This document shows positions 1,972 to 47,900 of a stretch of 64,000 nt of DNA, piece by piece (the stretch's first letter is position 1; the number at the start of each line of letters is the position of its first letter). The translations under genes were made by a program, and so were the position numbers. The notes beneath the pieces were generated by a model, which saw only the letters and a program-made list of their open reading frames with translations, was not told where the DNA came from and did no database searches. Origin of the DNA: Methanobrevibacter sp. V74 (GTDB lineage Archaea; Methanobacteriota; Methanobacteria; Methanobacteriales; Methanobacteriaceae); assembly GCF_963082495.1 (NCBI RefSeq), contig NZ_CAUJAN010000002.1:310001-374000 (forward strand). The letters run 5' to 3'.

Positions 1972-2005
1972 CCTTTTTGAGGATATATTAAGATTGAAGA
2001 GGTGT

Positions 2006-2029
2006 ATTTCAAGTGTAAACACTTGAAAT
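2006..2029. repeat. Palindromic double mini-ORB (boxes 2 and 3)
   Basis: Two mini-ORB half sites face each other. An 11-base arm (2006-2016) is followed by two bases (AA) and then its exact reverse complement (2019-2029). The left half is the full 12-mer on the minus strand. The right half lacks the canonical leading T. This may be a paired initiator site at the origin. Confidence 0.8.
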
Positions 2030-2120
2030 TTATCTTTATTATTTTTTCTTATTTTTTAATTTAAAGAATTTTTATTTATTATCTATTGATTTAAAGTATT
2101 TTCACGCGATTTTGATTTTT

Positions 2121-2132
2121 TTACACTTGAAA
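2121..2132 (+). repeat. Mini-ORB box 4
   Basis: Exact TTACACTTGAAA in the spacer before orc1/cdc6. Probable initiator binding site. Confidence 0.82.
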
Positions 2133-2168
2133 TGTATGTCTTCATTTTAGCTTTTCACATGAAAAGCA

Positions 2169-2180
2169 TTACACTTGAAA
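2169..2180 (+). repeat. Mini-ORB box 5
   Basis: Exact TTACACTTGAAA followed by tacacctc. It is the right arm of the 20-bp inverted repeat that frames the origin core. Confidence 0.82.
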
Positions 2181-2278
2181 TACACCTCTCTCTGTTAATG
2201 TTAAATGATGATAATATTTTTGAAATTAATATTTTTAGGCTAATCTAAAAGTTAATAGATACTATTTTTCTCAAAAAA

Positions 2279-2290
2279 TTACACTTGAAA
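2279..2290 (+). repeat. Mini-ORB box 6
   Basis: Exact TTACACTTGAAA. A degenerate copy (atatttgaaa, 2301-2310) follows on the same strand. It borders the most AT-rich part of the spacer. Confidence 0.8.
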
Positions 2291-2584
2291 TTGTTATCTT
2301 ATATTTGAAATTGTACTATTTCATATTTAAAATTTAATTTTCTTATATTTATTTAAAATAAGAATAAATTAATATTAATACTAATTTCATGGTTATAATT
2401 GATTTTAATTAGTATTTCATTAAACTAATCAATTTAATTAAAATAATTTTTCATAAATAATGTTTTTTTCATACATTTTTACAAGTTTGTAATAAAAAAC
2501 TTTATTAAATATTTTTTTAATATATTAACACTGGAAATTATACTTATCATATTTTTTTATAATTTTATTTTTTTAGGTGAAAAC

Positions 2585-3754
2585 ATGGGAAATATTTTTG
2601 AAGATGAAAACTTTATTGGGAGGTCTAAGAAAAACAATATTTTTAAAAATAAAACACCTCTTGATCATAGATTCTTACCAGATAAATTACTACATAGAGA
2701 TGAACAAATAAGGCAAATTGCAAAATGTTGGGTTGATGTATTAGATGGTGTTACTCCATCAAATGTTACTTTATATGGTAAAACAGGTACTGGAAAAACA
2801 GCTACCTCTAAATTTGCAAGAGAACAACTGCTGGAATTTGCAAATAATGAAAATGTATTTGTTAAAATTGAACATATTAGATGTACTGATTATACAACAG
2901 AATATCAAGTCATTGCTGAGTTATGTAATAGACTTGGACGTGATGTACCAAATCGTGGCTGGACAAAAGCTGAAGTTGTAAATACATTTAGAAATATTTT
3001 TAAAAGACCAAGTATCCGTAGAGGTAAATTACTTTTAATTGTTATTTTAGATGAAATTGATATATTGCTTGATAAAGATGGGGATGGGATTTTATATACC
3101 CTGACAAGAACAGATAATGTATCGGTTTTATCAATTAGTAATTATTTGGACTTTAAAAATTTAATTAAATCAAGAGTAACAAGTAGTTTAAATGATAAAG
3201 AAATAGTATTTCCACCATATGGAGCAGATCAGTTATCAGATATTTTATCTGAAAGAGCTGAGCTATCATTTAAGGATAATGTTTTAGAATCTGATGTGAT
3301 TCCATTATGCTCAGCAATGGCCGCTAAAGAAGAAGGTGATGCAAGATATGCTCTAGATTTACTTAAAAATGCTGGTGAATTAGCATTTGACGAATCTTCA
3401 AAAAAAGTGACAAGCAATCATGTAAGAAAAGCTAAAGATAGAATAGAACACAATAAAGTCAGTGAAATTTTATCTACATTACCACTTCAACAACAAAGAC
3501 TTTTAGAAGCTATTTTGAATTTAACAAAGAAAAATGAAGAAATTACCTCAGGTAAACTATATGAGACATACACAGATATTTCTAAAAAAGACGCTGTAAC
3601 TTATAGAAGAATATTTGATTTTATTAATGACCTTGAATTATTAGGTTTAATATCAACCAACACGGTTTCACGTGGACGTGGAAAAGGAAGAACCAATATT
3701 ATCAAACTTCAATGTGATGAAAACTTACTGGAAACAGCTTTTTATACTATTTAG
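2585..3754 (+). CDS. cdc6: Orc1/Cdc6 replication initiator
   Basis: This 389-residue AAA+ ATPase recognises archaeal origins and helps load the MCM helicase. Walker A (GKTGTGKT) is at residues 65-72 and Walker B (ILDEID) at about 154-159. A sensor-1 region ([11 protein letters not shown]) and a sensor-2 arginine context ([11 protein letters not shown]) follow. The C-terminal 100 residues (from about [12 protein letters not shown]) form the winged-helix DNA-binding domain. The start is supported by ggtgaaac just upstream of the ATG. It lies immediately downstream of mini-ORB repeats, the usual archaeal initiator-origin linkage. Its end overlaps the convergent pyrB by 8 bp. Confidence 0.96.
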
Positions 3755-15282: not shown

Positions 15283-15340
15283 TATTTTAACTTATAACTT
15301 ATATCTAATAACTTATAAAAAAATAATTAATTATAAGTTT
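15283..15340. repeat. Small cluster of AACTTA/TAAGTT motifs
   Basis: The 63-bp gap between two convergent genes holds AACTTA at 15289, 15296 and 15310 and TAAGTT at 15334. These are the same short motif that fills the spacer before parA (20884-21262). Four copies in about 50 bp exceed chance even in AT-rich DNA. Confidence 0.5.
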
Positions 15341-19560: not shown

Positions 19561-20862
19561 ATGAATTACAAAATAACTTTAAACTCAAATGAAGTGCCTA
19601 AGGAATGGTACAATATTAATGCTGACTTACCTGTTGAACTTCCAATGCCTAAAAATAGTGAAGGAAGAGATCAAATTGCTTCACTTCAAAAAGCATTTAC
19701 CAGAGCAGGTTTAGAACAAGAGTTTTCACAAGAAAGATATATCAAAATACCTAAAGAGGTTAGAAAACTTTACATGCAAATGGGAAGGCCTTCTCCTTTA
19801 TTTAGAGCTACTAAATTGGAAGAGTACCTCAATACTCCTGCTAAAATTTATTATAAACGGGAAGATACTTCTCCAACGGGTTCGCATAAGCTAAATTCAG
19901 CAATACCTCAAGCATACTTTGCCAAAAAAGAGGGTGTTGAAAGATTGACTACTGAAACCGGTGCAGGACAATGGGGAACCGCTTTATCTCTTGCATGTAA
20001 CCTTTTAGATTTAGATTGTACAGTTTACATGGTTAAAGTTTCCTTTAATCAAAAGCCTGATAGAAAAAATATCATGAATATCTATAACGGTAACGTTTAT
20101 GCATCCCCTAGTGAAAATACTAAGATTGGACGTGAAATTTTAGCCAAAAATCCTGATCACCCAGGTTCACTTGGTGTTGCAATTTCAGAAGCTATGGAAG
20201 AAGCACTGGAAAATGAAGAAGTCAAATACACATTAGGCAGTGTTCTTAACCATGTAATGCTACATCAATCAATCATTGGTCAAGAACTTAAAAAACAATT
20301 GGAAATTGCAGATGAAACTCCAGATGTCATGATTGCTTGTGCTGGTGGTGGAAGTAATCTTTCTGGGTTTTTATTCCCGTTTATAAAAGATAAAATCGAT
20401 GGCAAATCAGATACCCAGTTCATTGCTGTTGAACCAAGTGCTTGCCCTACATTAACCAAAGGTAGTTATGAATATGATTTTGGTGATGTAAGTGGATTTA
20501 CTCCAATGCTTAAGATGTTCACGTTAGGCCACGACTTTGTAGCTCCAGCAGTTCATGCTGGTGGATTAAGATACCATGGAATGTCTCCACAGGTTTCCCT
20601 TTTAACTAAAGAAGGGTATATTGAACCTAGATCTGCCCATCAAAGAGAGGTATTTGAAGCAGGAATTACTTTTGCTCGCAATGAAGGTGTTCTACCTGCT
20701 CCTGAAACTACTCATGCTATTAAAATAGCCATTGATGAGGCATTGAAATGTAAAAAAACTGGTGAGGAAAAAACTATTGTTGTAAACTTCTCCGGTCATG
20801 GAATGTTAGATTTAAAAGGATATGCTAGCTATTTTGAAGGTAATATGCCTGATGCTAAATAA
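19561..20862 (+). CDS. trpB2: Tryptophan synthase beta chain, TrpB2 type
   Basis: TrpB2 is a PLP enzyme that makes tryptophan from indole and serine and may work without TrpA. The 433-residue length and the long N-terminal segment mark the TrpB2 class, not TrpB1 (about 400 residues). The PLP lysine lies in SPTGSHKLNSAIPQA. ETGAGQWGTALS is the substrate loop, and the glycine-rich ACAGGGSNLSGF phosphate-binding loop is near residue 260. It is separate from any trp operon and preceded by two TRP boxes. An iteron-like spacer and parA follow it. Confidence 0.94.
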   Translation: MNYKITLNSNEVPKEWYNINADLPVELPMPKNSEGRDQIASLQKAFTRAGLEQEFSQERYIKIPKEVRKLYMQMGRPSPLFRATKLEEYLNTPAKIYYKREDTSPTGSHKLNSAIPQAYFAKKEGVERLTTETGAGQWGTALSLACNLLDLDCTVYMVKVSFNQKPDRKNIMNIYNGNVYASPSENTKIGREILAKNPDHPGSLGVAISEAMEEALENEEVKYTLGSVLNHVMLHQSIIGQELKKQLEIADETPDVMIACAGGGSNLSGFLFPFIKDKIDGKSDTQFIAVEPSACPTLTKGSYEYDFGDVSGFTPMLKMFTLGHDFVAPAVHAGGLRYHGMSPQVSLLTKEGYIEPRSAHQREVFEAGITFARNEGVLPAPETTHAIKIAIDEALKCKKTGEEKTIVVNFSGHGMLDLKGYASYFEGNMPDAK

Positions 20863-20883
20863 TCCTTTTTTATTTTTTTATAT

Positions 20884-21262
20884 TTTTTTAGTTATAACTT
20901 ATAACTTTTAACTTATTACTTTTAATTCATTAGTTATAACTTATAAGTGTTAACGAATAACTAATAACTTATTTGTGAAAACAAATAATTTATAAGGAAG
21001 AAGTTATAAAATATAACTTATTTGTTAAAAGTTAGTTATGATAAGTTATTTCTTAAAACTTATTTTTTATAATTTAGAAGTTTTAACTTAAAACTTAATT
21101 CCTATCCCTTAGAAGTTAGAACTGATAAGTTATTTCATTTAAGTTTTAAATTGAAAGATATGACTTATTTCTTTTAACTTATACTGGATAACTTAAATGT
21201 TATTCTTTAGCATTTTGAATTTTTAAGTTATAACTCATAACTATTAACTTAAAACTTATCAA
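20884..21262. repeat. Dense AACTTA/TAAGTT motif array upstream of parA (candidate centromere or operator)
   Basis: This spacer contains at least 16 copies of AACTTA or its reverse complement TAAGTT in about 380 bp, many embedded in longer forms such as TTATAACTTATAA. For DNA with about 30 percent GC I would expect roughly one copy or fewer in this length. The copies lie in both orientations with irregular spacing and end about 20 bp before the parA ribosome binding site (aggaga). Arrays of short repeats next to parA genes commonly serve as partition sites or autoregulatory operators. Function here is inferred. Confidence 0.68.
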
Positions 21263-21280
21263 ATTTAGGAGAATTCTTTA

Positions 21281-22147
21281 ATGAGTGAAGTAATTGCAGT
21301 GATGAATCAAAAAGGAGGATGCGGTAAGACAACAACTGTTGTAAATACTGCAACATCCCTAGCGGTAATGGGTGAATCTGTTTTAGTTGTGGACATGGAT
21401 CCTCAAGCTAATGCTACTACAAGTTTTGGCATTGATAAAACTAAAATAGAAAATACAATATATGATGCTATCATTGGGGATATAAATGTAAAAAAAGCAA
21501 CAATTCCTACGTTTATTAAAAATTTGTTTATTATCCCAAGTAACATATCCCTTAGTGGTGCCGGAATGGAGCTTTCTCAACGTGAAAATTATCATATAAT
21601 TTTAAAAGAAACTCTTGAAGAGGTTGTACCATTATTTGACTATATATTCATCGATTTACCTCCTTCATTAGGTGTAATAACCGTTAATGCATTAGTAGCT
21701 TCCGATAGTGTATTAATCCCTATTCAAGCTGAGTATTATGCACTTGAAGGGGTAGCAGATTTAATTAATACAATAAAATTAGTTGAAAAAAGACTTAGAA
21801 GTCCCACTCCAATTAAAGGAATTCTCCTCACTCTATTTGATAAAAGAACTCGACTTAGTAAAGACGTTTACAAAGAACTTAAAAATTATTTTGGCGGAAC
21901 TGATCTGCTGTTTAAAACTATCATTCCAAGAAATATTAGATTAGCTGAAGCACCTAGTTTCGGTAAACCTTGTTTAGTTTACGATCCAGAAAGTACTGGA
22001 ACAAAAGCGTATCTTAGATTAGCTAAAGAAATTATTCAAAGAGATGAAAACCTTAGTTTGAATGAAGCTAAATCAAAAATAGATATTAATGACAAGTCTC
22101 AATCTAAAATTGTAAAAAATTCAGAAAAGAGTGAGAGTGGTGCATAA
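21281..22147 (+). CDS. parA: ParA/Soj/SegA-family partition ATPase
   Basis: This 288-residue deviant Walker ATPase drives DNA segregation by ATP-dependent nucleoid binding. The deviant Walker A KGGCGKTT is at residues 11-18, with switch I VDMDPQANATTSFG and Walker B IFIDLPPSLG. The C-terminal SFGKPCLVYDPESTGTKAYLRLAKEI region is characteristic of chromosomal Soj-like proteins, and a lysine/serine-rich tail follows. Its stop overlaps the ATG of the next gene by one base (TAATG). Upstream lies the AACTTA array. The gene is about 19 kb from the predicted origin, consistent with chromosome segregation. Confidence 0.93.
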   Translation: MSEVIAVMNQKGGCGKTTTVVNTATSLAVMGESVLVVDMDPQANATTSFGIDKTKIENTIYDAIIGDINVKKATIPTFIKNLFIIPSNISLSGAGMELSQRENYHIILKETLEEVVPLFDYIFIDLPPSLGVITVNALVASDSVLIPIQAEYYALEGVADLINTIKLVEKRLRSPTPIKGILLTLFDKRTRLSKDVYKELKNYFGGTDLLFKTIIPRNIRLAEAPSFGKPCLVYDPESTGTKAYLRLAKEIIQRDENLSLNEAKSKIDINDKSQSKIVKNSEKSESGA

Positions 22148-22764
22148 TGGTTAGAAAAGGACTTGGAAAAGGTTTAGATTCATTAATTCCAGATTTTTAT
22201 AATGAAGATTTTGATAGTAATTCACCTCAATCTCTTGAAGACATGCTTAAAGAAAATGATGATGATGCTGTTGATGATATAGAAAATAAACAAGATGCTG
22301 TTGAAGAAGTTAAGGATATAAAATCTACACAAGACGATATCGAGAATACAGAATCTAAACAAGAGGATAAAGAAGAAATTGTAGCCGATAGTGATGATAA
22401 AAAAGATAATTCAACTTCAGAAGGAAGTGGAGGAGTCAAAGAAGAGAGTCCAGAGGAAAAAACAGATGAAGAAACTCAAGAGGGCAGTGAATCATCTGAA
22501 AATTTATCTGGTGATAAAAGCAGTGAAGGTTCTCTACAAACATCACATGAACTTGAAATCCAACAAAAACATGTAGAAGAAGTTAAAAAGATTGTTGATA
22601 AAAATCCAAGGATTACCTTATGGTCTTCAAAATCTTCTGCGGTATTTAGATATTTAAGAAAAACTGAGCCGGAATTTAGCATTTCTAAAGAAGCTTCTGT
22701 TTTAATTGAAGAAGTTGTTTCTAAAAAATATCCTGAAATTTGGGCATTATTCGATGAAAATTAA
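22147..22764 (+). CDS. ParA partner with ParB-like N-terminal peptide and acidic linker; novel C-terminal domain
   Basis: This 205-residue protein begins MVRKGLGKGLDSLIPDF, which closely resembles the N-terminus of bacterial ParB (KRGLGRGLDALI type), the peptide that contacts ParA and stimulates its ATPase. Residues about 20-135 are a low-complexity acidic stretch rich in Asp, Glu, Lys and Ser, probably disordered. The C-terminal 65 residues (HVEEVKKIVDKNPRITLW to the end) look helical and folded. No ParB CTPase motif and no helix-turn-helix is present. It is translationally coupled to parA. I infer it is an archaeal segregation partner; how it contacts DNA is unknown. Confidence 0.72.
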   Translation: MVRKGLGKGLDSLIPDFYNEDFDSNSPQSLEDMLKENDDDAVDDIENKQDAVEEVKDIKSTQDDIENTESKQEDKEEIVADSDDKKDNSTSEGSGGVKEESPEEKTDEETQEGSESSENLSGDKSSEGSLQTSHELEIQQKHVEEVKKIVDKNPRITLWSSKSSAVFRYLRKTEPEFSISKEASVLIEEVVSKKYPEIWALFDEN

Positions 22765-31372: not shown

Positions 31373-32078
31373 CATCGATTTATTTATATATATGAAAGTA
31401 TAGATGTTTATAATAGTTATAATATCTTTATGGATTTTGTATACTTATATAAAAAAAGTTAATATGAATTATATAATTGTAGGGATGCTTTTGAAAATTA
31501 AACATTTTGCTTTTTTATGATTTGTATATTATATGAATTAATTATAATTGGTCGAGCTTTTTTATATGAATTGGACAGATAAATATAAATCAATATTTTA
31601 TAGCGATATTATTAATGTGTATTCAGATTCGGATGATTGAATTTCAAAAAAATTTTATATTATCTTTATTATTTTAATATAGGATATTATTCTGGTTAGG
31701 CTAGTAAAAATAATATGATTACTAATTGTCTCATTTAATATATGTTTTAATGATTGCTAAGAAAAGGTGACAATAAAAATATTATTAAGTAATTGTCTAT
31801 TATATAAAAATAAAGATGAGATTTTTTATATCATGATTTAATAAATATAGAAATTGTAAATAATCATATTGTTCTTATTTTTTAGAGTGTTTTTTATATA
31901 AACTATTATATGTTCATTGTTTCTTTTTTTTTATTTGAGTTATATGATTTTTCATGTTTTCTTATTGTAACTAATTATTATATAACAATATTTTATTTGA
32001 CTAATCATTTTTAGTTTAGAATAATGTTTGTTTAATTAATAATCATTATAATTATTAAATAATGAGGTTTTAAGTATA

Positions 32079-35000
32079 ATGTTAATAAATAATAAGAGTG
32101 TCATGTATTTGTCGTGTTTGCTATTACTTTTGTTTTTAGTATCAGCTGTAGCAGCACAAGATACAAACATGACGAATAATAATGAGGATCTTACAACAAG
32201 TAATACTGATAGTGTTGTAAGTGTTCAAAATGATGATCCCTCTTCCAATGGTTTGACAACGAATAATGGTCAAAATACCTCGAGGGGGGGGGGGCGCGAG
32301 CATTTTAAAAGCTCCCTCAAATAATGAAAATCTAAGAGCGGCAAATATTCATGTAACAGGAACTACTTTTGCAGATATACAAGCTGCAATTAATTCTGCT
32401 AGTTCTGGAGATAATATTTTTCTAGATGGGAAGGTTTATTCTATTGGTTCTGGGCATCCTATTGTTGTTAATAAAATTTTGAATATTTATGGTGGTAGTA
32501 GTGTGTCAGACCCAACAATGGCAGTGTTAGATTCTTTATCTAGGGATCATGTAATTCGTGTAACTGCTAACAATGTTTGTCTTAAATATTTAACAATTAC
32601 AAATGGTCTTTCTTTAAAAAATAGTTATCAAAATTATTATAATGGTGGTGGGTTGCGAGTATGGGGTAATTCACAATTGTCATCTTTAAATAATTTTAAG
32701 TTAATAAATTGCATCATACAAAACTGTAAGTCTATGCCTTCCTCAATTCCGATTAATAAATATTATTCTGGTGGTGGGGCATATATTGTATCTGATAATT
32801 TTTTAATTCAGAATTGTGAGTTTAAAAATTGTAGTGTATATAATGTTGGTGGAGGATTTTATGCGAGGGGTAATGGTAATGTGTTAAACTGCACATTCAA
32901 AGATAATCACCAAGTGGCTGGTGCAGGTACAGGATTCCAAATAAATTTACCCGCATCTCATTTTGGACAGGTATATGTTGATAATTGTAAGTTTGATAAT
33001 AATTACAATGAAAGAGGACATGGTGCATCAATTTGTTTTGTAGGAACTAGTAGTAAAGTTCATGTTAATAATTCTGTTTTTACTAATAATTTTGTTGGTC
33101 TTGGAGATTTAAATCATTGTGGGGGAGGAGGCATTCTTTTCCATTATGGTGGTGGAGCCTACAACTGTACTTTTATTAATAATACTGCACTCGAACATGG
33201 TGGAGCAATATCAGGTCTTTCCACTGAAGATGTTAATTTAGAGATTGTTGATTGTAGGTTTATTAATAATACTTCTCCTGAAGGTGCTGCTATATATATT
33301 AATGGTAATGGTGTTAAAGTTGATTCTTGTAACTTTACTGGGAATAATGCAAGTAATTTTGGTGCAGGTATCTATGTTAGAGGGGATCGTGCAGAAATAA
33401 CTAATTCTATTTTTAATGAGAATATTGCAACAAGTGGTGCTGGTGTTTATGTTCAAGGTATTAATGCTAAAATTTTGAATTCAAACTTCACAGATAATAA
33501 TGCATTTAATGTTGCTGGTGGAGTATTTATAAAAGGAAGTAATGCTCTTGTTAATACATGTAATTTTAATGATAATCTTGCTGTTGATGGGGGTGGTGTT
33601 TATATTGATGGTGCTTCTGCTCAGGTTCGGAATTCCAATTTCACAGGTAATAATGCTTCTAATCGTGGTGGTGGAGTATTTATAAAAGGAAGTAATGCTG
33701 TTTTATATAGTAATAATTTCACTTGTAATCATGCTAATCCTTCTGATATGATGCCGAATGGTATTGATGGTCTTGGTGGAGGATTATTTATTGATGGTAA
33801 TAATAACCAAATATTAAAATCTATTTTCAACTATAATACTGCTCGTAATGGGTCTGCTATTTATACTAATGGTATAAATGCTATTATTAAGGATACTGTT
33901 TTGCTTCAAAATCAGGCATGGAGTTACTTGTTGACTACTGTCGCTGCACCTCCAAGTAGCATTTACAATACTGCTGATGAGAATATTACTATGGTGCTTG
34001 TTGGTGGTGATAATATTGCAAATGCAATTTATAATAATGTATTACCTAGCCAAATCTCATTTTACACTGTAACTTATTCAACATCTAGATATGGTACCAA
34101 AACTACTACTCTTAGTGAAGTTCACCCTGTATGGGGTGCTGAAAACAGTAATGGTGGAAGACTATTGTATCAGGATAGTCGTGAGGATTATCAGACAATC
34201 ATATTACGGGTGATTAATGATGAAACAGGACAGATTGTTTATAACAATATTAATTTGAAAACTGATATTTATGGTAATGTTACTGTGATTATTCCTAAAG
34301 GTTTACAACCAGAAAATTATACTGTTTATGCTTCTCACCCTGAAGATTCGTTATATAAAGCAATTAACAATACAACTAAATTCAGAATAATACCTGTCGT
34401 TGATGTTAGTGTTACTAAAAACAGTGACAAAAACCTTTATGTATTAGGTGAAAACGTAATCTACACTATTGTAGTTACAAATAATGGTCCAAACATTGCT
34501 CATAATGTTACTTTGTGTGATGTTTTGCCAAGCACACTTACTTTAATATCCTTAAATAATGTTGGTTATGATAGCAGTACTGGTGTTTGGTATATTGGAA
34601 CAATGAATGTTGGAGCAAGTGTAACTTTAACAATTACTGCAAAAACAACTACTCTCGGAACTGTAAACAATATTGTAACTGTATCTAGTTATGAAAATGA
34701 TACTAATTTAACTAATAACCAAGCTAATAAAACTATTAATGTTGTTATTTATGGTGGTAAAACTGTTAATAATCCATATCCAACTTTAAGTGAAACTATC
34801 CAATATAACTTGACTATTAGAAATACTGGTAATACACTATATCAACACGATATAGAGATTGAGGATTTCTTGCCTGATGGTGTTACTTTCAAAAGTTTCA
34901 CTTTTACTAACGCTAGTCTTGTTAATTATAATTGGGGAGGTAATCATTATTATTTCACTATAACTGATATTAATGGTAATACTACTGCTGTTATTACCAT

Positions 35001-38000
35001 AAATGCTGTAGTTAATAAAAATGGTACTTGGACCAATACTATGCTTTTAGGTGGTCGCAATTATACTGCTAATATTACTGTTGTAGATATCGAGAAAACT
35101 GTGAATAATTCTAATCCTGTTGTGGGTGAGGTTATTGAGTATAATTTGACTGTTAATAATACTGGTAGTGTTGTTATTTCTGATAATGTTACTTTGGTTG
35201 ATTCATTGCCTGATGGTCTTGTTTATGCTGGTGATTATAGTGTTGTTGGTGGTAAGGTTGTTAAGTTCGCGCAATCTGGTAATAAGTTGATTTGGGTTGT
35301 TAGTGATATTGCTCCTGGTAGTTCTATGATCATTACTGTTAAGGTTAAGGTTGTTAGGGATGGTAGTTGGACTAATAATTTGACTTTGAATGGTAATTTT
35401 ACTGTTAATGCTACTGTTACTACTGTTAATCCAATTAAGACTGTGAATAATTCTAATCCTGTTGTGGGTGAGGTTATTGAGTATAATTTGACTGTTAATA
35501 ATACTGGTAGTGTTGTTATTTCTGATAATGTTACTTTGGTTGATTCATTGCCTGATGGTCTTGTTTATGCTGGTGATTATAGTGTTGTTGGTGGTAAGGT
35601 TGTTAAGTTCGCGCAATCTGGTAATAAGTTGATTTGGGTTGTTAGTGATATTGCTCCTGGTAGTTCTATGATCATTCACTGATAAGGTTAAGGTTGTTAG
35701 GGATGGTAGTTGGACTAATAATTTGACTTTGAATGGTAATTTTACTGTTAATGCTACTGTTACTACTGTTAATCCAATTAAGACTGTGAATAATTCTAAT
35801 CCTGTTGTGGGTGAGGTTATTGAGTATAATTTGACTGTTAATAATACTGGTAGTGTTGTTATTTCTGATAATGTTACTTTGGTTGATTCATTGCCTGATG
35901 GTCTTGTTTATGCTGGTGATTATAGTGTTGTTGGTGGTAAGGTTGTTAAGTTCGCGCAATCTGGTAATAAGTTGATTTGGGTTGTTAGTGATATTGCTCC
36001 TGGTAGTTCTATGATCATTACTGTTAAGGTTAAGGTTGTTAGGGATGGTAGTTGGACTAATAATTTGACTTTGAATGGTAATTTTACTGTTAATGCTACT
36101 GTTACTACTGTTAATCCAATTAAGACTGTGAATAATTCTAATCCTGTTGTGGGTGAGGTTATTGAGTATAATTTGACTGTTGAAATAATACTGGTAGTGT
36201 TGTTATTTCTGATAATGTTACTTTGGTTGATTCATTGCCTGATGGTCTTGTTTATGCTGGTGATTATAGTGTTGTTGGTGGTAAGGTTGTTAAGTTCGCG
36301 CAATCTGGTAATAAGTTGATTTGGGTTGTTAGTGATATTGCTCCTGGTAGTTCTATGATCATTACTGTTAAGGTTAAGGTTGTTAGGGATGGTAGTTGGA
36401 CTAATAATTTGACTTTGAATGGTAATTTTACTGTTAATGCTACTGTTACTACTGTTAATCCAATTAAGACTGTGAATAATTCTAATCCTGTTGTGGGTGA
36501 GGTTATTGAGTATAATTTGACTGTTAATAATACTGGTAGTGTTGTTATTTCTGATAATGTTACTTTGGTTGATTCATTGCCTGATGGTCTTGTTTATGCT
36601 GGTGATTATAGTGTTGTTGGTGGTAAGGTTGTTAAGTTCGCGCAATCTGGTAATAAGTTGATTTGGGTTGTTATGATACTTTGCATGATTACTGTTAAGG
36701 TTAAGGTTGTTAGGGATGGTAGTTGACTAATTTTGACTGGTAATTTTACTGTTAATGCTACTGTTGTTGTTAATCCAATTAAGAGTGAGTATAATTTGAC
36801 TGTTAATAATACTGGTAGTGTTGTTATTTCTGATAATGTTACTTTGGTTGATTCATTGCCTGATGGTCTTGTTTATGCTGGTGATTATAGTGTTGTTGGT
36901 GGTAAGGTTGTTAAGTTGCAATCTGGTAATAAGTTGATTTGGGTTGTTAGTGATATTGCTCCTGGTAGTTCTATGATCATTACTGTTAAGGTTAAGGTTG
37001 TTAGGGATGGTAGTTGGACTAATAATTTGACTTTGAATGGTAATTTTACTGTTAATGCTACTGTTACTACTGTTAATCCAATTAAGACTGTGAATAATTC
37101 TAATCCTGTTGTGGGTGAGGTTATTGAGTATAAGGTTTTGACTGTTAATAATACTGGTAGTGTTGTTATTTCTGATAATGTTACTTTGGTTGATTCATTG
37201 CCTGATGGTCTTGTTTATGCTGGTGATTATAGTGTTGTTGGTGGTAAGGTTGTTAAGTTCGCGCAATCTGGTAATAAGTTGATTTGGGTTGTTAGTGATA
37301 TTGCTCCTGGTAGTTCTATGATCATTACTGTTAAGGTTAAGGTTGTTAGGGATGGTAGTTGGACTAATAATTTGACTTTGAATGGTAATTTTACTGTTAA
37401 TGCTACTGTTACTACTGTTAATCCAATTAAGACTGTGAATAATTCTAATCCTGTTGTGGGTGAGGTTATTGAGTATAATTTGACTGTTAATAATACTGGT
37501 AGTGTTGTTATTTCTGATAATGTTACTTTGGTTGATTCATTGCCTGATGGTCTTGTTTATGCTGGTGATTATAGTGTTGTTGGTGGTAAGGTTGTTAAGT
37601 TCGCGCAATCTGGTAATAAGTTGATTTGGGTTGTTAGTGATATTGCTCCTGGTAGTTCTATGATCATTACTGTTAAGGTTAAGGTTGTTAGGGATGGTAG
37701 TTGGACTAATAATTTGACTTTGAATGGTAATTTTACTGTTAATGCTACTGTTACTACTGTTAATCCAATTAAGACTGTGAATAATTCTAATCCTGTTGTG
37801 GGTGAGGTTATTGAGTATAATTTGACTGTTAATAATACTGGTAGTGTTGTTATTTCTGATAATGTTACTTTGGTTGATTCATTGCCTGATGGTCTTGTTT
37901 ATGCTGGTGATTATAGTGTTGTTGGTGGTAAGGTTGTTAAGTTCGCGCAATCTGGTAATAAGTTGATTTGGGTTGTTAGTGATATTGCTCCTGGTAGTTC

Positions 38001-41000
38001 TATGATCATTACTGTTAAGGTTAAGGTTGTTAGGGATGGTAGTTGGACTAATAATTTGACTTTGAATGGTAATTTTACTGTTAATGCTACTGTTACTACT
38101 GTTAATCCAATTAAGACTGTGAATAATTCAAATTTAATCCTGTTGTGGGTGAGGTTATTGAGTATAATTTGACTGTTAATAATACTGGTAGTGTTGTTAT
38201 TTCTGATAATGTTACTTTGGTTGATTCATTGCCTGATGGTCTTGTTTATGCTGGTGATTATAGTGTTGTTGGTGGTAAGGTTGTTAAGTTCGCGCAATCT
38301 GGTAATAAGTTGATTTGGGTTGTTAGTGATATTGCTCCTGGTAGTTCTATGATCATTACTGTTAAGGTTAAGGTTGTTAGGGATGGTAGTTGGACTAATA
38401 ATTTGACTTTGAATGGTAATTTTACTGTTAATGCTACTGTTACTACTGTTAATCCAATTAAGACTGTGAATAATTCTAATCCTGTTGTGGGTGAGGTTAT
38501 TGAGTATAATTTGACTGTTAATAATACTGGTAGTGTTGTTATTTCTGATAATGTTACTTTGGTTGATTCATTGCCTGATGGTCTTGTTTATGCTGGTGAT
38601 TATAGTGTTGTTGGTGGTAAGGTTGTTAATGTTCGCGCAATCTGGTAATAAGTTGATTTGGGTTGTTAGTGATATTGCTCCTGGTAGTTCTATGATCATT
38701 ACTGTTAAGGTTAAGGTTGTTAGGGATGGTAGTTGGACTAATAATTTGACTTTGAATGGTAATTTTACTGTTAATGCTACTGTTACTACTGTTAATCCAA
38801 TTAAGACTGTGAATAATTCTAATCCTGTTGTGGGTGAGGTTATTGAGTATAATTTGACTGTTAATAATACTGGTAGTGTTGTTATTTCTGATAATGTTAC
38901 TTTGGTTGATTCATTGCCTGATGGTCTTGTTTATGCTGGTGATTATAGTGTTGTTGGTGGTAAGGTTGTTAAGTTCGCGCAATCTGGTAATAAGTTGATT
39001 TGGGTTGTTAGTGATATTGCTCCTGGTAGTTCTATGATCATTACTGTTAAGGTTAAGGTTGTTAGGGATGGTAGTTGGACTAATAATTTGACTTTGAATG
39101 GTAATTTTACTGTTAATGCTACTGTTACAAGTTACTGTTAATCCAATTAAGACTGTGAATAATTCTAATCCTGTTGTGGGTGAGGTTATTGAGTATAATT
39201 TGACTGTTAATAATACTGGTAGTGTTGTTATTTCTGATAATGTTACTTTGGTTGATTCATTGCCTGATGGTCTTGTTTATGCTGGTGATTATAGTGTTGT
39301 TGGTGGTAAGGTTGTTAAGTTCGCGCAATCTGGTAATAAGTTGATTTGGGTTGTTAGTGATATTGCTCCTGGTAGTTCTATGATCATTACTGTTAAGGTT
39401 AAGGTTGTTAGGGATGGTAGTTGGACTAATAATTTGACTTTGAATGGTAATTTTACTGTTAATGCTACTGTTACTACTGTTAATCCAATTAAGACTGTGA
39501 ATAATTCTAATCCTGTTGTGGGTGAGGTTATTGAGTATAATTTGACTGTTAATAATACTGGTAGTGTTGTTATTTCTGATAATGTTACTTTGGTTGATTC
39601 ATTGCCTGATGGTCTTGTTTATGCTGGTGATTATAGTGTTGTTGGTGGTAAGGTTGTTAAGTTCGCGCAATCTGGTAATAAGTTGATTTGGGTTGTTAGT
39701 GATATTGCTCCTGGTAGTTCTATGATCATTACTGTTAAGGTTAAGGTTGTTAGGGATGGTAGTTGGACTAATAATTTGACTTTGAATGGTAATTTTACTG
39801 TTAATGCTACTGTTACTACTGTTAATCCAATTAAGACTGTGAATAATTCTAATCCTGTTGTGGGTGAGGTTATTGAGTATAATTTGACTGTTAATAATAC
39901 TGGTAGTGTTGTTATTTCTGATAATGTTACTTTGGTTGATTCATTGCCTGATGGTCTTGTTTATGCTGGTGATTATAGTGTTGTTGGTGGTAAGGTTGTT
40001 AAGTTCGCGCAATCTGGTAATAAGTTGATTTGGGTTGTTAGTGATATCTGGTAGTTCTAATCAAGTTGAGGTTGTTAGGGATGGTAGTTGACTAATAATT
40101 TGACTTTGAATAATGGTAATTTTACTGTTAATGATACTACTGTTAATCCAATTAAGACTGTGAATAATTCTAATCCTGGTAGTTCTATGATCATTACTGT
40201 TAAGGTTAAGATAATGTTGTTATGGGATGGTAAGGTTGTTAGTTGGACTAATAATTTGACTTTGAATGGTAATTTTACTGTTAATGCTACTGTTACTACT
40301 GTTAATCCAATTAAGACTGTGAATAATTCTAATCCTGTTGTGGGTGAGGTTATTGAGTATAATTTGACTGTTAATAATACTGGTAGTGTTGTTATTTCTG
40401 ATAATGTTACTTTGGTTGATTCATTGCCAGTGATGGTCTTGTTTATGCTGGTGATTATAGTGTTGTTGGTGGTAAGGTTGTTAAGTTCGCGCAATCTGGT
40501 AATAAGTTGATTTGGGTTGTTAGTGATATTGCTCCTGGTAGTTCTATGATCATTACTGTTAAGGTTAAGGTTGTTAGGGATGGTAGTTGGACTAATAATT
40601 TGACTTTGAATGGTAATTTTTGTTAATGCTACTGTTACTACTGTTAATCCAATTAAGACTGTGAATAATTCTAATCCTGTTGTGGGTGAGGTTATTGAGT
40701 ATAATTTGACTGTTAATAATACTGGTAGTGTTGTTATTTCTGATAATGTTACTTTGGTTGATTCATTGCCTGATGGTCTTGTTTATGCTGGTGATTATAG
40801 TGTTGTTGGTGGTAAGGTTGTTAAGTTCGCGCAATCTGGTAATAAGTTGATTTGGGTTGTTAGTGATATTGCTCCTGGTAATAATTTGTTAAGGTTAAGG
40901 TTGTTAGGGATGGTAGTTGGCACTAATAATTTGACTTTGAATGGTAATTTTACTGTTAATGCTACTGTTACTACTGTTAATCCAATTAAGACTGTGAATA

Positions 41001-44000
41001 ATTCTAATCCTGTTGTGGGTGAGGTTATTGAGTATAATTTGACTGTTAATAATACTGGTAGTGTTGTTATTTCTGATAATGTTACTTTGGTTGATTCATT
41101 GCCTGATGGTCTTGTTTATGCTGGTGATTATAGTGTTGTTGGTGGTAAGGTTGTTAAGTTCGCGCAATCTGGTAATAAGTTGATTTGGGTTGTTAGTGAT
41201 ATTGCTCCTGGTAGTTCTATGATCATTACTGTTAAGGTTAAGGTTGTTAGGGATGGTAGTTGGACTAATAATTTGACTTTGAATGGTAATTTTACTGTTA
41301 ATGCTACTGTTACTACTGTTAATCCAATTAAGACTGTGAATAATTCTAATCCTGTTGTGGGTGAGGTTATTGAGTATAATTTGACTGTTAATAATACTGG
41401 TAGTGTTGTTATTTCTGATAATGTTACGTTTGGTTGATTCATTGCCTGATGGTCTTGTTTATGCTGGTGATTATAGTGTTGTTGGTGGTAAGGTTGTTAA
41501 GTTCGCGCAATCTGGTAATAAGTTGATTTGGGTTGTTAGTGATATTGCTCCTGGTAGTTCTATGATCATTACTGTTAAGGTTAAGGTTGTTAGGGATGGT
41601 AGTTGGACTAATAATTTGACTTTGAATGGTAATTTTACTGTTAATGCTACTGTTACTACTGTTAATCCAATTAAGACTGTGAATAATTCTAATCCTGTTG
41701 TGGGTGAGGTTATTGAGTATAATTTGACTGTTAATAATACTGGTAGTGTTGTTATTTCTGATAATGTTACTTTGGTTGATTCATTGCCTGATGGTCTTGT
41801 TTATGCTGGTGATTATAGTGTTGTTGGTGGTAAGGTTGTTAAGTTCGCGCAATCTGGTAATAAGTTGATTTGGGTTGTTAGTGATATTGCTCCTGGTAGT
41901 TCTATGATCATTACTGTTAAGGTTAAGGATTGTTAGGGATGGTAGTTGGACTAATAATTTGACTTTGAATGGTAATTTTACTGTTAATGCTACTGTTACT
42001 ACTGTTAATCCAATTAAGACTGTGAATAATTCTAATCCTGTTGTGGGTGAGGTTATTGAGTATAATTTGACTGTTAATAATACTGGTAGTGTTGTTATTT
42101 CTGATAATGTTACTTTGGTTGATTCATTGCCTGATGGTCTTGTTTATGCTGGTGATTATATTGGTAAGGTTGATGGTCTGGTAATAAGTTGATTTGGGTT
42201 GTTAGTTATTGCTGGTAGTTCTATGATCATTACTGTTAAGGTTAAGGTTGTTGGATGGTAGTTGGACTAATAATTTGACTTTGAATGGTAATTTTACTGT
42301 TAATGCTACTGTTACTACTGTTAATCCAATTAAGACTGTGAATAATTCTAATCCTGTTGTGGGTGAGGTTATTGAGTATAATTTGACTGTTAATAATACT
42401 GGTAGTTGTTGTTATTTCTGATAATGTTACTTTGGTTGATTCATTGCCTGATGGTCTTGTTTATGCTGGTGATTATAGTGTTGTTGGTGGTAAGGTTGTT
42501 AAGTTCGCGCAATCTGGTAATAAGTTGATTTGGGTTGTTAGTGATATTGCTCCTGGTAGTTCTATGATCATTACTGTTAAGGTTAAGGTTGTTAGGGATG
42601 GTAGTTGGACTAATAATTTGACTTTGAATGGTAATTTTACTGTTAATGCTACTGTTACTACTGTTAATCCAATTAAGACTGTGAATAATTCTAATCCTGT
42701 TGTGGGTGAGGTTATTGAGTATAATTTGACTGTTAATAATACTGGTAGTGTTGTTATTTCTGATAATGTTACTTTGGTTGATTCATTGCCTGATGGTCTT
42801 GTTTATGCTGGTGATTATAGTGTTGTTGGTGGTAAGGTTGTTAAGTTCGCGCAATCTGGTAATAAGTTGATTTGGGTTGTTAGTGATATTGCTCCTGGTA
42901 GTGTATCTATGATCATTACTGTTAAGGTTAAGGTTGTTAGGGATGGTAGTTGGACTAATAATTTGACTTTGAATGGTAATTTTACTGTTAATGCTACTGT
43001 TACTACTGTTAATCCAATTAAGACTGTGAATAATTCTAATCCTGTTGTGGGTGAGGTTATTGAGTATAATTTGACTGTTAATAATACTGGTAGTGTTGTT
43101 ATTTCTGATAATGTTACTTTGGTTGATTCATTGCCTGATGGTCTTGTTTATGCTGGTGATTATAGTGTTGTTGGTGGTAAGGTTGTTAAGTTCGCGCAAT
43201 CTGGTAATAAGTTGATTTGGGTTGTTAGTGATATTGCTCCTGGTAGTTCTATGATCATTACTGTTAAGGTTAAGGTTGTTAGGGATGGTAGTTGGACTAA
43301 TAATTTGACTTTGAATGGTAATTTTACTGTTAATGCTACTGTTACTACTGTTAATCCAATTAAGACTGTGAATAATTCTAATCCTGTTGTGGGTGAGGTT
43401 ATTGAGTATAATTTGACTGTTAATAATACTGGTAGTGTTGTTATTTCTGATAATGTTACTTTGGTTGATTCATTGCCTGATGGTCTTGTTTATGCTGGTG
43501 ATTATAGTGTTGTTGGTGGTAAGGTTGTTAAGTTCGCGCAATCTGGTAATAAGTTGATTTGGGTTGTTAGTGATATTGCTCCTGGTAGTTCTATGATCAT
43601 TACTGTTAAGGTTAAGGTTGTTAGGGATGGTAGTTGGACTAATAATTTGACTTTGAATGGTAATTTTACTGTTAATGCTACTGTTACTACTGTTAATCCA
43701 ATTTGTGAATAATTCTAATCCTGTTGTTAGGTTATTGAGTATAATTTGACTGTTAATAATACTGGTAGTGTTGTTATTTCTGATAATGTTACTTTGGTTG
43801 ATTCATTGCCTGATGGTCTTGTTTATGCTGGTGATTATAGTGTTGTTGGTGGTAAGGTTGTTAAGTTCGCGCAATCTGGTAATAAGTTGATTTGGGTTGT
43901 TAGTGATATTGCTCCTGGTAGTTCTATGATCATTACTGTTAAGGTTAAGGTTGTTAGGGATGGTAGTTGGACTAATAATTTGACTTTGAATGGTAATTTT

Positions 44001-46274
44001 ACTGTTAATGCTACTGTTACTACTGTTAATCCAATTAAGACTGTGAATAATTCTAATCCTGTTGTGGGTGAGGTTATTGAGTATAATTTGACTGTTAATA
44101 ATACTGGTAGTGTTGTTATTTCTGATAATGTTACTTTGGTTGATTCATTGCCTGATGGTCTTGTTTATGCTGGTGATTATAGTGTTGTTGGTGGTAAGGT
44201 TGTTAAGTTCGCGCAATCTGGTAATAAGTTGATTTGGGTTGTTAGTGATATTGCTCCTGGTAGTTCTATGATCATTACTGTTAAGGTTAAGGTTGTTAGG
44301 GATGGTAGTTGGACTAATAATTTGACTTTGAATGGTAATTTTACTGTTAATGCTACTGTTACTACTGTTAATCCAATTAAGACTGTGAATAATTCTAATC
44401 CCTGTTGTGGGTGAGGTTATTGAGTATAATTTGACTGTTAATAATACTGGTAGTGTTGTTATTTCTGATAATGTTACTTTGGTTGATTCATTGCCTGATG
44501 GTCTTGTTTATGCTGGTGATTATAGTGTTGTTGGTGGTAAGGTTGTTAAGTTCGCGCAATCTGGTAATAAGTTGATTTGGGTTGTTAGTGATATTGCTCC
44601 TGGTAGTTCTATGATCATTACTGTTAAGGTTAAGGTTGTTAGGGATGGTAGTTGGACTAATAATTTGACTTTGAATGGTAATTTTACTGTTAATGCTACT
44701 GTTACTACTGTTAATCCAATTAAGACTGTGAATAATTCTAATCCTGTTGTGGGTGAGGTTATTGAGTATAATTTGACTGTTAATAATACTGGTAGTGTTG
44801 TTATTTCTGATAATGTTACTTTGGTTGATTCATTGCCTGATGGTCTTGTTTATGCTGGTGATTATAGTGTTGTTGGTGGTAAGGTTGTTAAGTTCGCGCA
44901 ACTTCTGGTAATAAGTTGATTTGGGTTGTTAGTGATATTGCTCCTGGTAGTTCTATGATCATTACTGTTAAGGTTAAGGTTGTTAGGGATGGTAGTTGGA
45001 CTAATAATTTGACTTTGAATGGTAATTTTACTGTTAATGCTACTGTTACTACTGTTAATCCAATTAAGACTGTGAATAATTCTAATCCTGTTGTGGGTGA
45101 GGTTATTGAGTATAATTTGACTGTTAATAATACTGGTAGTGTTGTTATTTCTGATAATGTTACTTTGGTTGATTCATTGCCTGATGGTCTTGTTTATGCT
45201 GGTGATTATAGTGTTGTTGGTGGTAAGGTTGTTAAGTTCGCGCAATCTGGTAATAAGTTGATTTGGGTTGTTAGTGATATTGCTCCTGGTAGTTCTATGA
45301 TCATTACTGTTAAGGTTAAGGTTGTTAGGGATGGTAGTTGGACTAATAATTTGACTTTGAATGGTAATTTTACTGTTAATGCTACTGTTACTACTGTTCA
45401 TAAGGCTGATTTAGTCATTATTAAGAATGTGTCTAATAAATCTCCGAATTATTTAGACAAGATTGCCTGGTCTATTACTGTGGTTAATCTTGGTCCTAAT
45501 AGTGCTCATGATGTTGTTGTCACAGATTTATTACCTAATGGTCTTGTTTACCTTGGTTATGATGCTGCTAAAGGTGCTTATAATCCAATTACTGGTTTGT
45601 GGAACATTGGTGTTTTAAATGTAGGTGAACGTGTTGTTTTAACTATCTATTCATTAGTGGATGTTTCTAACTCTACTATTATTAACTTAGCTGTTGTTAA
45701 TAGTACTACTTATGACCCAAACATGAGTAATAATAAAGATAATGAATCTATTGTTGTTTCTCCTGCTGCAGATCTTGAGGTTATTAAAGTGTCTAATGTT
45801 GATTTTGCTGTTGTTGGCGATACTGTGATTTGGACTATTACTGTTATTAATCATGGTCCTGATAATGCTACTAATGTTAGGTTATTTGACTTATTGTCTT
45901 CTAGTTTAAAATTAGTCAATTTCATTGTTAGTAGGGGTAGTTTTAATAAATTTACTGGTGTTTGGAGTCTTGGTGAGTTGAAAGCTGGTGATAATGCTAC
46001 TATTCGCATTATTACTATTGCTTTGGTTAGTGGTCATGTTGTGAACTTTGCTAATGTTACTAGTGATGTTTATGATCCGAATATGACTAATAATAAGGAT
46101 AATGCTACTGTTAATGTTATTAATAAGACAATACCTCCAGAATCTCCAGAACCTTCTAAACCTTCAAAACTTCCTGTTCATTCAATGAGGGCTACAGGTA
46201 ATCCAATCTTAATGGTGTTAATGGCATGTCTATTAATTGGATCTTCTATTGTTTATAGAAGAAGGAAAAATTAA
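32079..46274 (+). CDS. Giant adhesin-like surface protein locus (about 4,700 codons if frames are restored)
   Basis: A ribosome binding site (gaggt, 32064-32068) precedes ATG at 32079 and a signal peptide (residues 2-27, VMYLSCLLLLLFLVSAVAA). After a short Asn/Thr-rich linker an 11-G tract shifts the frame. The remainder encodes a right-handed beta-helix region (about 32340-33900), two diverged DUF11 domains (about 34400-35090), about 31 near-identical 114-residue repeats (35101-45399), two further DUF11 domains, a proline-rich stalk (PPESPEPSKPSKLP), and RATGNPILMVLMACLLIGSSIVYRRRKN as the anchor. Numerous indels split the repeats into many frames. Some or all may be assembly errors. Role: cell-surface attachment, inferred from architecture. 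Confidence 0.82.
32284..32294 (+). repeat. Poly-G tract (G11), candidate phase-variation switch
   Basis: Eleven consecutive G sit between the signal peptide and the passenger of the giant adhesin, in DNA that is otherwise about 70 percent A+T. With G11 the signal-peptide frame runs into a stop at 32324. With G10 (or G13) it joins the long downstream frame, reading TSRGGGASILKAPSNN. Slipped-strand changes of one base would switch the protein off and on. Confidence 0.72.
35101..45399 (+). repeat. Tandem array of about 31 copies of a 342-bp DUF11-type unit
   Basis: Unit starts (gtgaataattctaatcctg) occur at 35101, 35443, 35786, 36128, 36472, then every 342 bp or so to 45072. About 13 of the 30 intervals between starts are exactly 342 bp, and the DNA is nearly identical including synonymous sites. 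Units near 36472-36790, 40045-40318 and 42158-42337 are shortened or scrambled. Each unit encodes 114 residues with the core VGEVIEYNLTVNNTGSVV and DSLPDGLVYAGDYSVVGG. The last copy ends at 45399, where the sequence changes to HKADLVIIKN. Confidence 0.93.
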
Positions 46275-46514
46275 ATTATATGGGGTGGTGGGGAAACACT
46301 CCTCATCATTACTTTCTTTTTTTAAAGTAACACTTATTTAAACATAGTTCCATGAATAAACTATTATTTTATTTTACCATGCTTTTTATTATTCTAATAT
46401 GTCAAATGTTTTGAGTATATTCCTGTTTATTCATATAAGGTTTTTCCTAATGAAATTTTTTAATTATTATCATTATTAATAACACTGTTATATCACTTTT
46501 AGACGAAATTTAAT

Positions 46515-47900
46515 CTCTTTCAAAAACTTGTGTGATTTGAATTTTTACTATTTTTTGAGCCACGAAATTTTTTCGTTTTAATTTTTTCTTTATTTTTAAT
46601 TTAAAAGTATTAAAATTAATATATAAGGTGGAACTTAAATATTAATATGAATAACAACAATATTAAAGCTCCATATGAATGTATGGAGTTAAAAGAATAT
46701 AAACTTTCCGATTTTATTCCAGAGTTTTTTCTGAATTCCGTCAATCTGATGATCTTTCTCGATTTGGTTGTGAAAAATATTGCTGATAATCTATATATTA
46801 GACTGGAAAAAAAGAGGTAAAACTTATTTTTGAAAAATAGAATTAGTATTTTATCCAAGTTGTAAATCAAAAGATGCTGTTAAAAATGGAACTTACGAAA
46901 GGAAACTAATCTTTTTTTAAGAATTGGAGAACAAATGTGCACTATTCAAAAATATAAATGCAAAAAAATGCGGCAAAGTTTTTTTATACTGATTTATCCT
47001 CACTTTTTTATCCTAATTCTAATATTACATTGCCCGTTATTGATTGTATTGAAAATTTATATCAAATTTTATGGTGCAGGGCTCCACAAAATACGATTTG
47101 ACTTAAAAAATCAACACAACATCGAAATCTCACACCAAAGCATAGAAAACATATTATTAAAACTCAAATTATCAATTTAACTATCCAAATTGGACTTATT
47201 TATGGTTTATTATTTATTTGACAGTCTTTGGGTTAAAATTAATGGGATTTGGATATTATATTTTTAGCATTATTCGACGTTAAACTGAATACTTTAGTTT
47301 CAGTCAAATTAGTCGAATCAGAAGATTACAAGACCATTTATCAATTCTTAAACGAATCACTAAGAAATCAAAAGAAAATATCAATATGAACATGACTTAA
47401 AACATGAATATCGAGAAGCAATGAGATAGATAAACTAAAAGTAAAACATCATTTCTGCAAATTTCACGTGAAACAAAACATAAACAAAAGATTTAAAGAC
47501 TATTTTAATAAAAACCAACTAACAGATGAAGAAAAAGAAATCTTAACAGAATTAAAACAAGACATTTATAAAAATATTGGATGCAGAAACACTCAATGAT
47601 GCTAAAAAAACTACGTGACATGTTAATTGATAAAAAAATACCCTCCAAACAACTTCACAATACAAAATCCTATGGAAATTCATCATTCCTTACTTTAAAA
47701 AATTAACGAACCACCTTGAAAACACGAATATTCCATCGACAAACAATAAAATCGAAAACATCTTCCAAAAAGTATTCCCAAAACATATAAAAAGAACAAT
47801 GAAGATAAAACAAGGACTTTTAACAAGATTCATGCTAAAACTAAATTATTGGAACATAAAAAATGAAAAAGAAAAAAAATCACACAAGTTTTTGAAAGAG
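46515..47900 (+). mobile_element. Decayed insertion sequence with 21-bp perfect terminal inverted repeats
   Basis: The 21 bases at 46515-46535 (ctctttcaaaaacttgtg...) recur exactly as the reverse complement at 47880-47900. Between them is a broken transposase gene of about 1.2 kb. Size and single-ORF structure resemble ISM1-like elements known from Methanobrevibacter, but I cannot confirm the family. No target-site duplication is obvious. The right end continues into a 19-bp-arm hairpin (47885-47930). The 46275-46514 spacer shows only a possible terminator and no gene. Confidence 0.7.
46647..47880 (+). pseudogene. DDE-type transposase pseudogene with N-terminal zinc ribbon
   Basis: Pieces are readable across frames: MNNNNIKAPYECMELKEYKL at the start after a ggtgg ribosome binding site, a zinc-ribbon trace (CKSKDAVKNGTYERKLI... 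KYKCKK), an HTH-like SHQSIENILLKLKLS, then IFALFDVKLNTLVSVKLVES, HHFCKFHVKQNINKRFKDYF and the C-terminal NIPSTNNKIENIFQKVFP with GLLTRFMLKLNYW. Several frameshifts and stops interrupt it, so it is inactive. The family is not assigned with confidence. Confidence 0.65.

Follow-up and report, generated by a model that had tools for sequence, protein, structure and literature searches.

A candidate SegAB chromosome segregation locus of Methanobrevibacter with a long heptad lattice upstream of segA

The window analysed in this study is a stretch of 64,000 nucleotides (64 kb) from Methanobrevibacter sp. V74. Towards its first third, the window contains an array of short DNA motifs in AT-rich, intergenic DNA, followed by two genes on the forward strand. 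The array (20889..21259, no strand assigned) consists of 53 consecutive 7-bp units of the forms AACTTAT and AAGTTAT in one register, and represents a candidate operator or centromere of the protein SegB. The first gene, segA or parA (21281..22147, + strand), is followed by segB (22147..22764, + strand), the ATG of which shares one base with the segA stop codon at 22147 (TAATG). Within the lattice, at 20989..20996 on the + strand, lies the TATA-like box TTTATAAG, which, judging from the sequence, is probably the TATA element of the segA promoter. The main orc1/cdc6 gene, which marks the origin, is located at 2585..3754 (+ strand), with its match to orc1/cdc6 at 2639-3709, about 17 kb from the array. 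An earlier note on this DNA had described at least 16 AACTTA/TAAGTT motifs in about 380 bp, a complete Soj-type ParA, and a coupled gene that starts with a GLGKGLDSLIP peptide, and these three descriptions were borne out by the present analysis.

The segA gene encodes a Soj-type deviant Walker ATPase of 288 aa with the motif KGGCGKT. The protein matched Pfam AAA_31 at 1.7e-62, and its best PDB chains were ParA 8ray (1e-70) and Soj 6iub (2e-63), whereas Sulfolobus SegA (7dut) was matched with an E-value of 1e-16. The ATPase is thus nearer to Soj/ParA than to the Sulfolobus SegA. In addition, it was found to be 44% identical to a bacterial ParA encoded on a foreign contig. In one related genome (G148, locus L170) the segA frame stops shortly past the Walker motif, which is not the case in genome G144 (L169). 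These two loci share identical upstream DNA, and the difference in segA of L170 reflects either strain variation or a sequencing error.

The product of segB is a protein of 205 aa with a ParB-like N-terminal peptide, an acidic linker and a C-terminal domain (22579..22755, + strand). By itself, this protein had no significant match to any Pfam or NCBIfam family. A profile built from 48 C-terminal domains, however, matched the PDB structures of Sulfolobus SegB (7duv and 7dv2) with an E-value of 1e-10, and a full-length profile that included divergent relatives matched 7duv with an E-value of 2.4e-15 in an alignment reaching the SegB N-terminus. On the evidence of these profiles, the second protein is SegB and its C-terminus is a ribbon-helix-helix domain. 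The earlier note had instead regarded this region as a new helical domain on an unrelated DNA- or chromatin-binding protein, a view that had to be given up, because the domain belongs to a known archaeal family of centromere-binding proteins. What holds of its segregation-cassette reading is the cassette as such, the ParB-like peptide on a protein other than ParB, and an array in keeping with an operator or a centromere; the novelty of the protein does not hold. Its statement that the protein lacks a ParB CTPase or HTH domain was correct, since ParB_N, HTH_ParB and ParB_C were all absent from the Pfam and NCBIfam matches up to an E-value of 10. Three other identities of the second protein were considered and rejected. 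A histone fold at the C-terminus was dismissed since H2B chains were matched with E-values of only 0.08-0.9 as compared to 1e-10 for SegB, a new C-terminal domain was excluded by the SegB profile match, and a bacterial ParB was excluded by the missing ParB domains, all of which Pfam did recognise (ParB_N, HTH and ParB_C) in the bacterial ParB of locus L219. The latter locus, which is located on contig C57 of the archaeal MAG G025, has a ParA along with a true ParB and is a probable bacterial contamination.

The peptide GLGKGLDSLIP (22159..22191, + strand) comprises residues 5-15 of SegB and is of the ParB type. It resembles the N-termini of bacterial ParB proteins in general; the ParB of L219, for example, begins with MTVKRGLGMGLSDLLG, and the SegB of genome G148 with MTQKKGLGMGLDALIQ. 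The pattern LGxGLxxL[IF] was present in 109 of the 110 distinct complete frames with an NPR-type domain motif, a set to which L176, L210 and L211 do not belong, and the one remaining frame has GLGKGINSLF. Searching with the N-terminal peptide gave no match among PDB chains at an E-value of 10, and among plasmids a single match (E-value of 5) in a frame that is not ParB. The full-length SegB profile pairs ELDFLLKKK with GLDALIKKK, but 7duv was aligned only from its residue 3, such that the ParB-type LGxGL peptide sets the present protein apart from this Sulfolobus SegB. The acidic linkers differ strongly among the SegB relatives. For bacterial ParB, the N-terminal peptide has been described as necessary and sufficient for ParA binding and, together with DNA, for stimulation of the ATPase (PMC12462528).

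SegB was detected in 123 of 138 genomes of the family and in 135 of 151 genomes of the phylum, covering 20 of 20 genera. A ParA gene lies beside segB in 30/30, 20/20 and 18/19 loci of three sets, the nineteenth locus of the last set starting at a contig end. In 14 of the 16 genomes without SegB, no ParA was found at 1e-20. Of the other two genomes, one (G095) has a stretch of N where the gene would lie, and the other (G025) yielded no ParA except the bacterial one located on a foreign contig. Most of the genomes without SegB probably represent assembly gaps, but one of them, G085, has a completeness rating of 99%. A segB contig of Methanobrevibacter-like kind is also present in a record with the title 'Bacilli bacterium' (L061), which is a probable case of mis-binning. 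In its own genome, segB is located 18 kb from the main orc1 gene. In 16 further genomes this distance was 9-41 kb in 13 cases, 84 kb in G019, approximately 202 kb in G138 and approximately 309 kb in G140, where contig circularity was assumed for G019, G116, G122, G138, G140 and G150. Altogether, segB was found at most 41 kb from the main orc1 gene in 14 of 17 genomes, the own genome included. Short AT-rich tandem repeats, which are perhaps part of the origin, lie shortly before the main orc1/cdc6 gene, at 2038-2351 of the window.

The most conspicuous property of the array is its strict 7-bp register, the central regularity of the locus, which is absent from the earlier note. Between positions 20896 and 21258 there are 16 exact AACTTA/TAAGTT hexamers, 12 in forward and 4 in reverse orientation, and all 16 share a single 7-bp register across 363 bp. 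If phases are independent, the chance of one common phase is about 7 to the minus 15. The same hexamers occur 126 times in the 64-kb window as compared to 84 ± 9 in dinucleotide shuffles. When the array was read in frame, 39 of the 53 heptads matched AACTTAT or AAGTTAT at no fewer than five of the seven bases, against a background of 4.9%. The period-7 score of the region 20884-21262 was 0.256 (z 19.7), a value reached by none of 2000 dinucleotide shuffles, the maximum of which was 0.055, and the other periods tested from 5 to 12 scored below zero. In agreement with this, the self-match of the array amounted to 0.55-0.60 at lags of 7, 14, 21 and 28, and to 0.28-0.39 at the remaining lags up to 29. 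Period 7 was also significant separately on each side of the TATA-like box, with z 11.5 upstream and z 14.9 downstream, and in the same frame. In a sliding scan of the window the array reached a period-7 score of 0.279, while the next best place, among windows starting outside 20600-21300 and outside 32000-46500 (the 342-bp repeat gene), reached only 0.040. Since the two heptad forms are near mirror images within one frame, the lattice is readable in both orientations.

Both the array and the N-terminal peptide were found to be kept in relatives. A lattice score based on the heptads that lie in frame ahead of parA, over a maximum of 700 bp, exceeded the maximum of 127 background windows in 56 of 68 loci, which, being related, are not independent cases. 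The window and 29 other loci of the genus Methanobrevibacter have 13-61 heptads, the value of 13 stemming from a locus of which the upstream DNA is limited to 169 bp, and four further loci of the window's genus have 22-75. At least 31 heptads were counted in 32 of the 34 loci of this genus. The numbers ranged from 18 to 71 in several sister genera, and Methanothermobacter-like loci (families f2 and f3) displayed 8-10 heptads around a TATA-like box similar to the one in the window. In the other 12 of the 68 loci, which belong to genera g2, g12 (Methanosphaera), g14-g17 and g20 (read as Methanothermus), the lattice score did not exceed the background maximum, and most of these loci still have two to seven units near parA. 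One of them (L164, read as Methanothermus) has segAB with no convincing lattice upstream, as evidenced by a score of 3 and a best period-7 score of 0.060 within 5 kb. The share of core hexamers in a single register was 26/26 in L178, 18/18 in both L002 and L179, 12/20 in L027 and 9/14 in L003, where the regions of relatives such as L003 and L027 include upstream DNA or genes. The counts of register and lattice score leave aside L168, the available stretch of which includes no ParA, and the paralogous locus L176.

For a closer comparison, 20 sequences including the window were aligned; the eight loci L018-L024 and L027 of the other clade were omitted by choice, as were L003 and L028, in which the TATA-like pattern was not found. 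The TATA-like box is kept in all 20 sequences. Directly after this box lies a nearly invariant lattice core (20999..21072, no strand assigned), in which 72 of the 74 columns are identical. The window differs from its 19 aligned relatives by 14 indels of 1-4 bp, none of them a multiple of 7, and all of these are located in the 3′ third of the array or after the array. The invariant share per heptad position was 26-33 of 40-41, which revealed no clear effect of position.

Periodic DNA was also encountered beside more distant relatives of SegB. A tblastn search of plasmids identified one such relative, WP_013195750.1 (annotated as 'hypothetical protein'), on the Methanohalobium evestigatum plasmid pMETEV01 (L211), and nothing beyond Methanohalobium; a phage search with one query yielded nothing. 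The partner of the plasmid protein is an AAA ATPase other than ParA, and upstream of this pair there are ACTATAA-like units with a period of 7 (z 7.1). A scan of viral contigs revealed a single segAB pair on the uncultured contig L210, where CCTTTAG-like 7-bp units occur upstream (z 11.1) and, in addition, in the DNA encoding the segB linker (z 13.3). This linker-coding stretch (L210 3781-3975) is periodic like the upstream array, as if the gene itself carried binding sites. The ATPase-coding regions, which served as controls, showed no period 7 (z 1.1 and 0.8). Furthermore, a second and divergent segAB pair is present in genome G134, at about 1981-3251 of locus L176 (C1:475500-481500), and is preceded by TAACTNNN units. 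Here, the period is 8 bp, with a score of 0.239 against a maximum of 0.077 in shuffles that preserve single-base rather than dinucleotide content; 9 of 9 AACT motifs share one phase modulo 8, and nothing was detected at period 7. Apart from a fragment in G103, no further second copies of this kind were among the matches listed for the 151 genomes. The predicted DNA-facing strands of these SegB proteins vary (RITLW, SIAIW, RVGAW and KIGVW), and such differences are compatible with a drifting specificity, as far as four cases can indicate.

In a DNA search of the own genome, with scores computed for 40 of the 111 first-look candidates, no second long lattice was seen. A possible satellite site (15289..15316, no strand assigned) between two convergent ORFs consists of AACTTAT AACTTAT ATCTAAT AACTTAT in register, and may have arisen by chance. 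A two-heptad pattern matched the genome at 18 places, 12 of them within the window, 8 of which lie in the array. The reversed pattern, used as a control, gave 30 matches, and isolated heptad pairs therefore carry little meaning. For the 12-bp palindrome AAGTTATAACTT, the genome has a single occurrence, at 50220 of the window, within an ORF and outside the array.

SegAB has been reported in Crenarchaea as well as in some of the Euryarchaea (PMC5120986; PMC12284271). As in the Sulfolobus/Saccharolobus system described there, segA and segB overlap at the present locus, the SegB domain is shared (E-value of 2e-15), and the putative sites lie upstream of segA and near an origin. Sulfolobus/Saccharolobus, in contrast, is described as having separate 13-bp sites, whereas the present lattice extends to up to 75 units with other letters. 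The published Sulfolobus site, TCTAGA-S-TCTAGA, is composed of two hexamers with a 7-bp step (PMC12284271). The corresponding motif TCTAGASTCTAGA is absent from the array, and the window has 4 matches with 3 mismatches, which is fewer than expected by chance. This motif was not taken as defining, because SegB sites in Euryarchaeota are expected to differ from those in Sulfolobus (PMC12284271). SegB is described as a ribbon-helix-helix centromere-binding protein that wraps DNA as a left-handed helix, resembling the omega protein of pSM19035 (PMC9178275). In pSM19035, one dimer occupies each 7-bp unit, activation of the ATPase requires a minimum of 4 contiguous units, and there is overlap between the sites and promoters (PMC9499535). 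The present locus is similar to delta/omega of pSM19035 in that a ribbon-helix-helix protein accompanies 7-bp units that adjoin one another, occur in both orientations and cover a putative promoter, a likeness confined to architecture. The pSM19035 units read WATCACW, with 7-10 per site, whereas the array has other letters, and no WATCACW pair was found here with up to 1 mismatch allowed. Omega was not among the significant PDB matches of the domain profile, which were SegB only. With bacterial ParABS, the locus shares the Soj-type ParA and an N-terminal peptide of the same type, but the ParB_N, HTH_ParB and ParB_C domains of that system are missing from the second protein. The bacterial parS site follows the pattern TGTTTCACGTGAAACA. 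No good site of this pattern was present in the window, the nearest places being 25580 (3 mismatches) and 47460 (2 mismatches), both outside the cassette. The expected number of such places was 0.44, and 5 of 100 shuffles reached 2. The place at 47460-47475 is probably due to chance.

We consider it likely that the locus is a chromosomal SegAB system of Methanobacteria, in which SegB coats the lattice, represses segAB and triggers the ParA/SegA ATPase through its peptide, so that the lattice is segregated. By analogy with the systems described above, SegB dimers would bind the heptads side by side via their ribbon-helix-helix domains, presumably one dimer per heptad, and the bound SegB may wrap the lattice DNA into a continuous helix. 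As the lattice spans the putative segA promoter, SegB bound to it would repress the segAB operon. The crowded, flexible N-termini of SegB with the GLGKGLDSLIP peptide would then engage DNA-bound ParA/SegA and trigger its ATPase, whereby the SegB-coated, origin-proximal lattice would be pulled along the nucleoid and act as a centromere. SegAB itself is known, and the present locus is a variant of it: the ATPase is of the Soj type, the peptide of the ParB type and the SegB domain archaeal, and a long and strict lattice of heptads lies close to orc1, the marker of the origin.

The main rival explanation holds that the lattice is solely an autoregulatory operator of segAB, that its genus-specific length tunes repression, and that segregation, if any, proceeds via other sites. 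The Methanothermobacter-like families, with just 8-10 heptads around the TATA-like box, would suit such an operator, as would the result of the own-genome search for a second long lattice. However, the lattices of at least 31 heptads in nearly all loci of the window's genus are far above the need of an operator, and the locus lies near orc1 in most genomes examined. Moreover, operator and centromere are described to coincide in pSM19035 (PMC9499535). On balance, we regard a pure operator as unlikely. Considerably less probable is that the heptads are read by a DNA-binding protein other than SegB. This idea could draw on the array letters, which are unlike the Sulfolobus SegB motif, but periodic arrays also accompany the SegB relatives on the Methanohalobium plasmid and the uncultured contig as well as the divergent paralog. 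Since the neighbouring ATPase on the plasmid is not ParA, SegB is the element shared beside these arrays.

It is also conceivable that the part of the array downstream of the TATA-like box is a structured RNA leader that governs segA translation. Indeed, this part folds better than shuffles (z -4.35, 0/200), and in a structure derived from the alignment 14 of 1600 cells were broken, with both sides changed in 10. Hairpins, however, arise automatically from inverted heptads in one register, and the lattice keeps this register on the other side of the TATA-like box as well (z 11.5), in upstream DNA that should not give rise to a leader RNA. In addition, 120 of 1794 cells were broken in the window's own MFE structure, and no Rfam family was matched at its gathering score. 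An RNA leader is accordingly a very improbable explanation. A neutral origin of the array, as low-complexity DNA produced by slippage, might be imagined for a short unit in an AT-rich genome, but it is contradicted by the conservation of 72 of 74 columns across the 20 aligned sequences and by the period-7 score, which dinucleotide shuffles never reached while other periods from 5 to 12 remained below zero. This explanation is hardly credible.

Returning to the SegAB reading, a wider and more tentative proposal, which we would not put quite at even chances, is that SegB proteins read lattices of a step set by the protein, with letters that drift by lineage. The step would be 7 bp in Methanobacteria, the methanosarcinal plasmid, the uncultured contig and the published Sulfolobus site, and 8 bp for the paralog of G134. 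In this proposal, the Methanobrevibacter lattice would have grown to at least 50 units and be a true chromosomal centromere, and SegB would carry the ParA-activating peptide of ParB. If so, one peptide would serve two unrelated DNA-binding folds. The form of archaeal centromeres and the variation of SegAB in Euryarchaeota are among the open questions named in a 2016 review (PMC5120986), and an array of this kind is unreported in the titles and abstract openings of the SegB and Methanobrevibacter ParA literature that was searched, a scope outside which the main SegB structure paper (Yen 2021) lies. The lattice offers a single, short and conserved candidate for an archaeal centromere in widespread methanogens, and the lattice model makes sharp predictions on the register, the minimal number of contiguous units and the dependence on the peptide.

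Elsewhere in the window, 342-bp repeats that are nearly identical (97-98% matches) extend in a long series over positions 32266-46274, which is split into many ORFs. This series looks like either a giant repetitive protein, the reading frame of which is interrupted, or a problem in the assembly.
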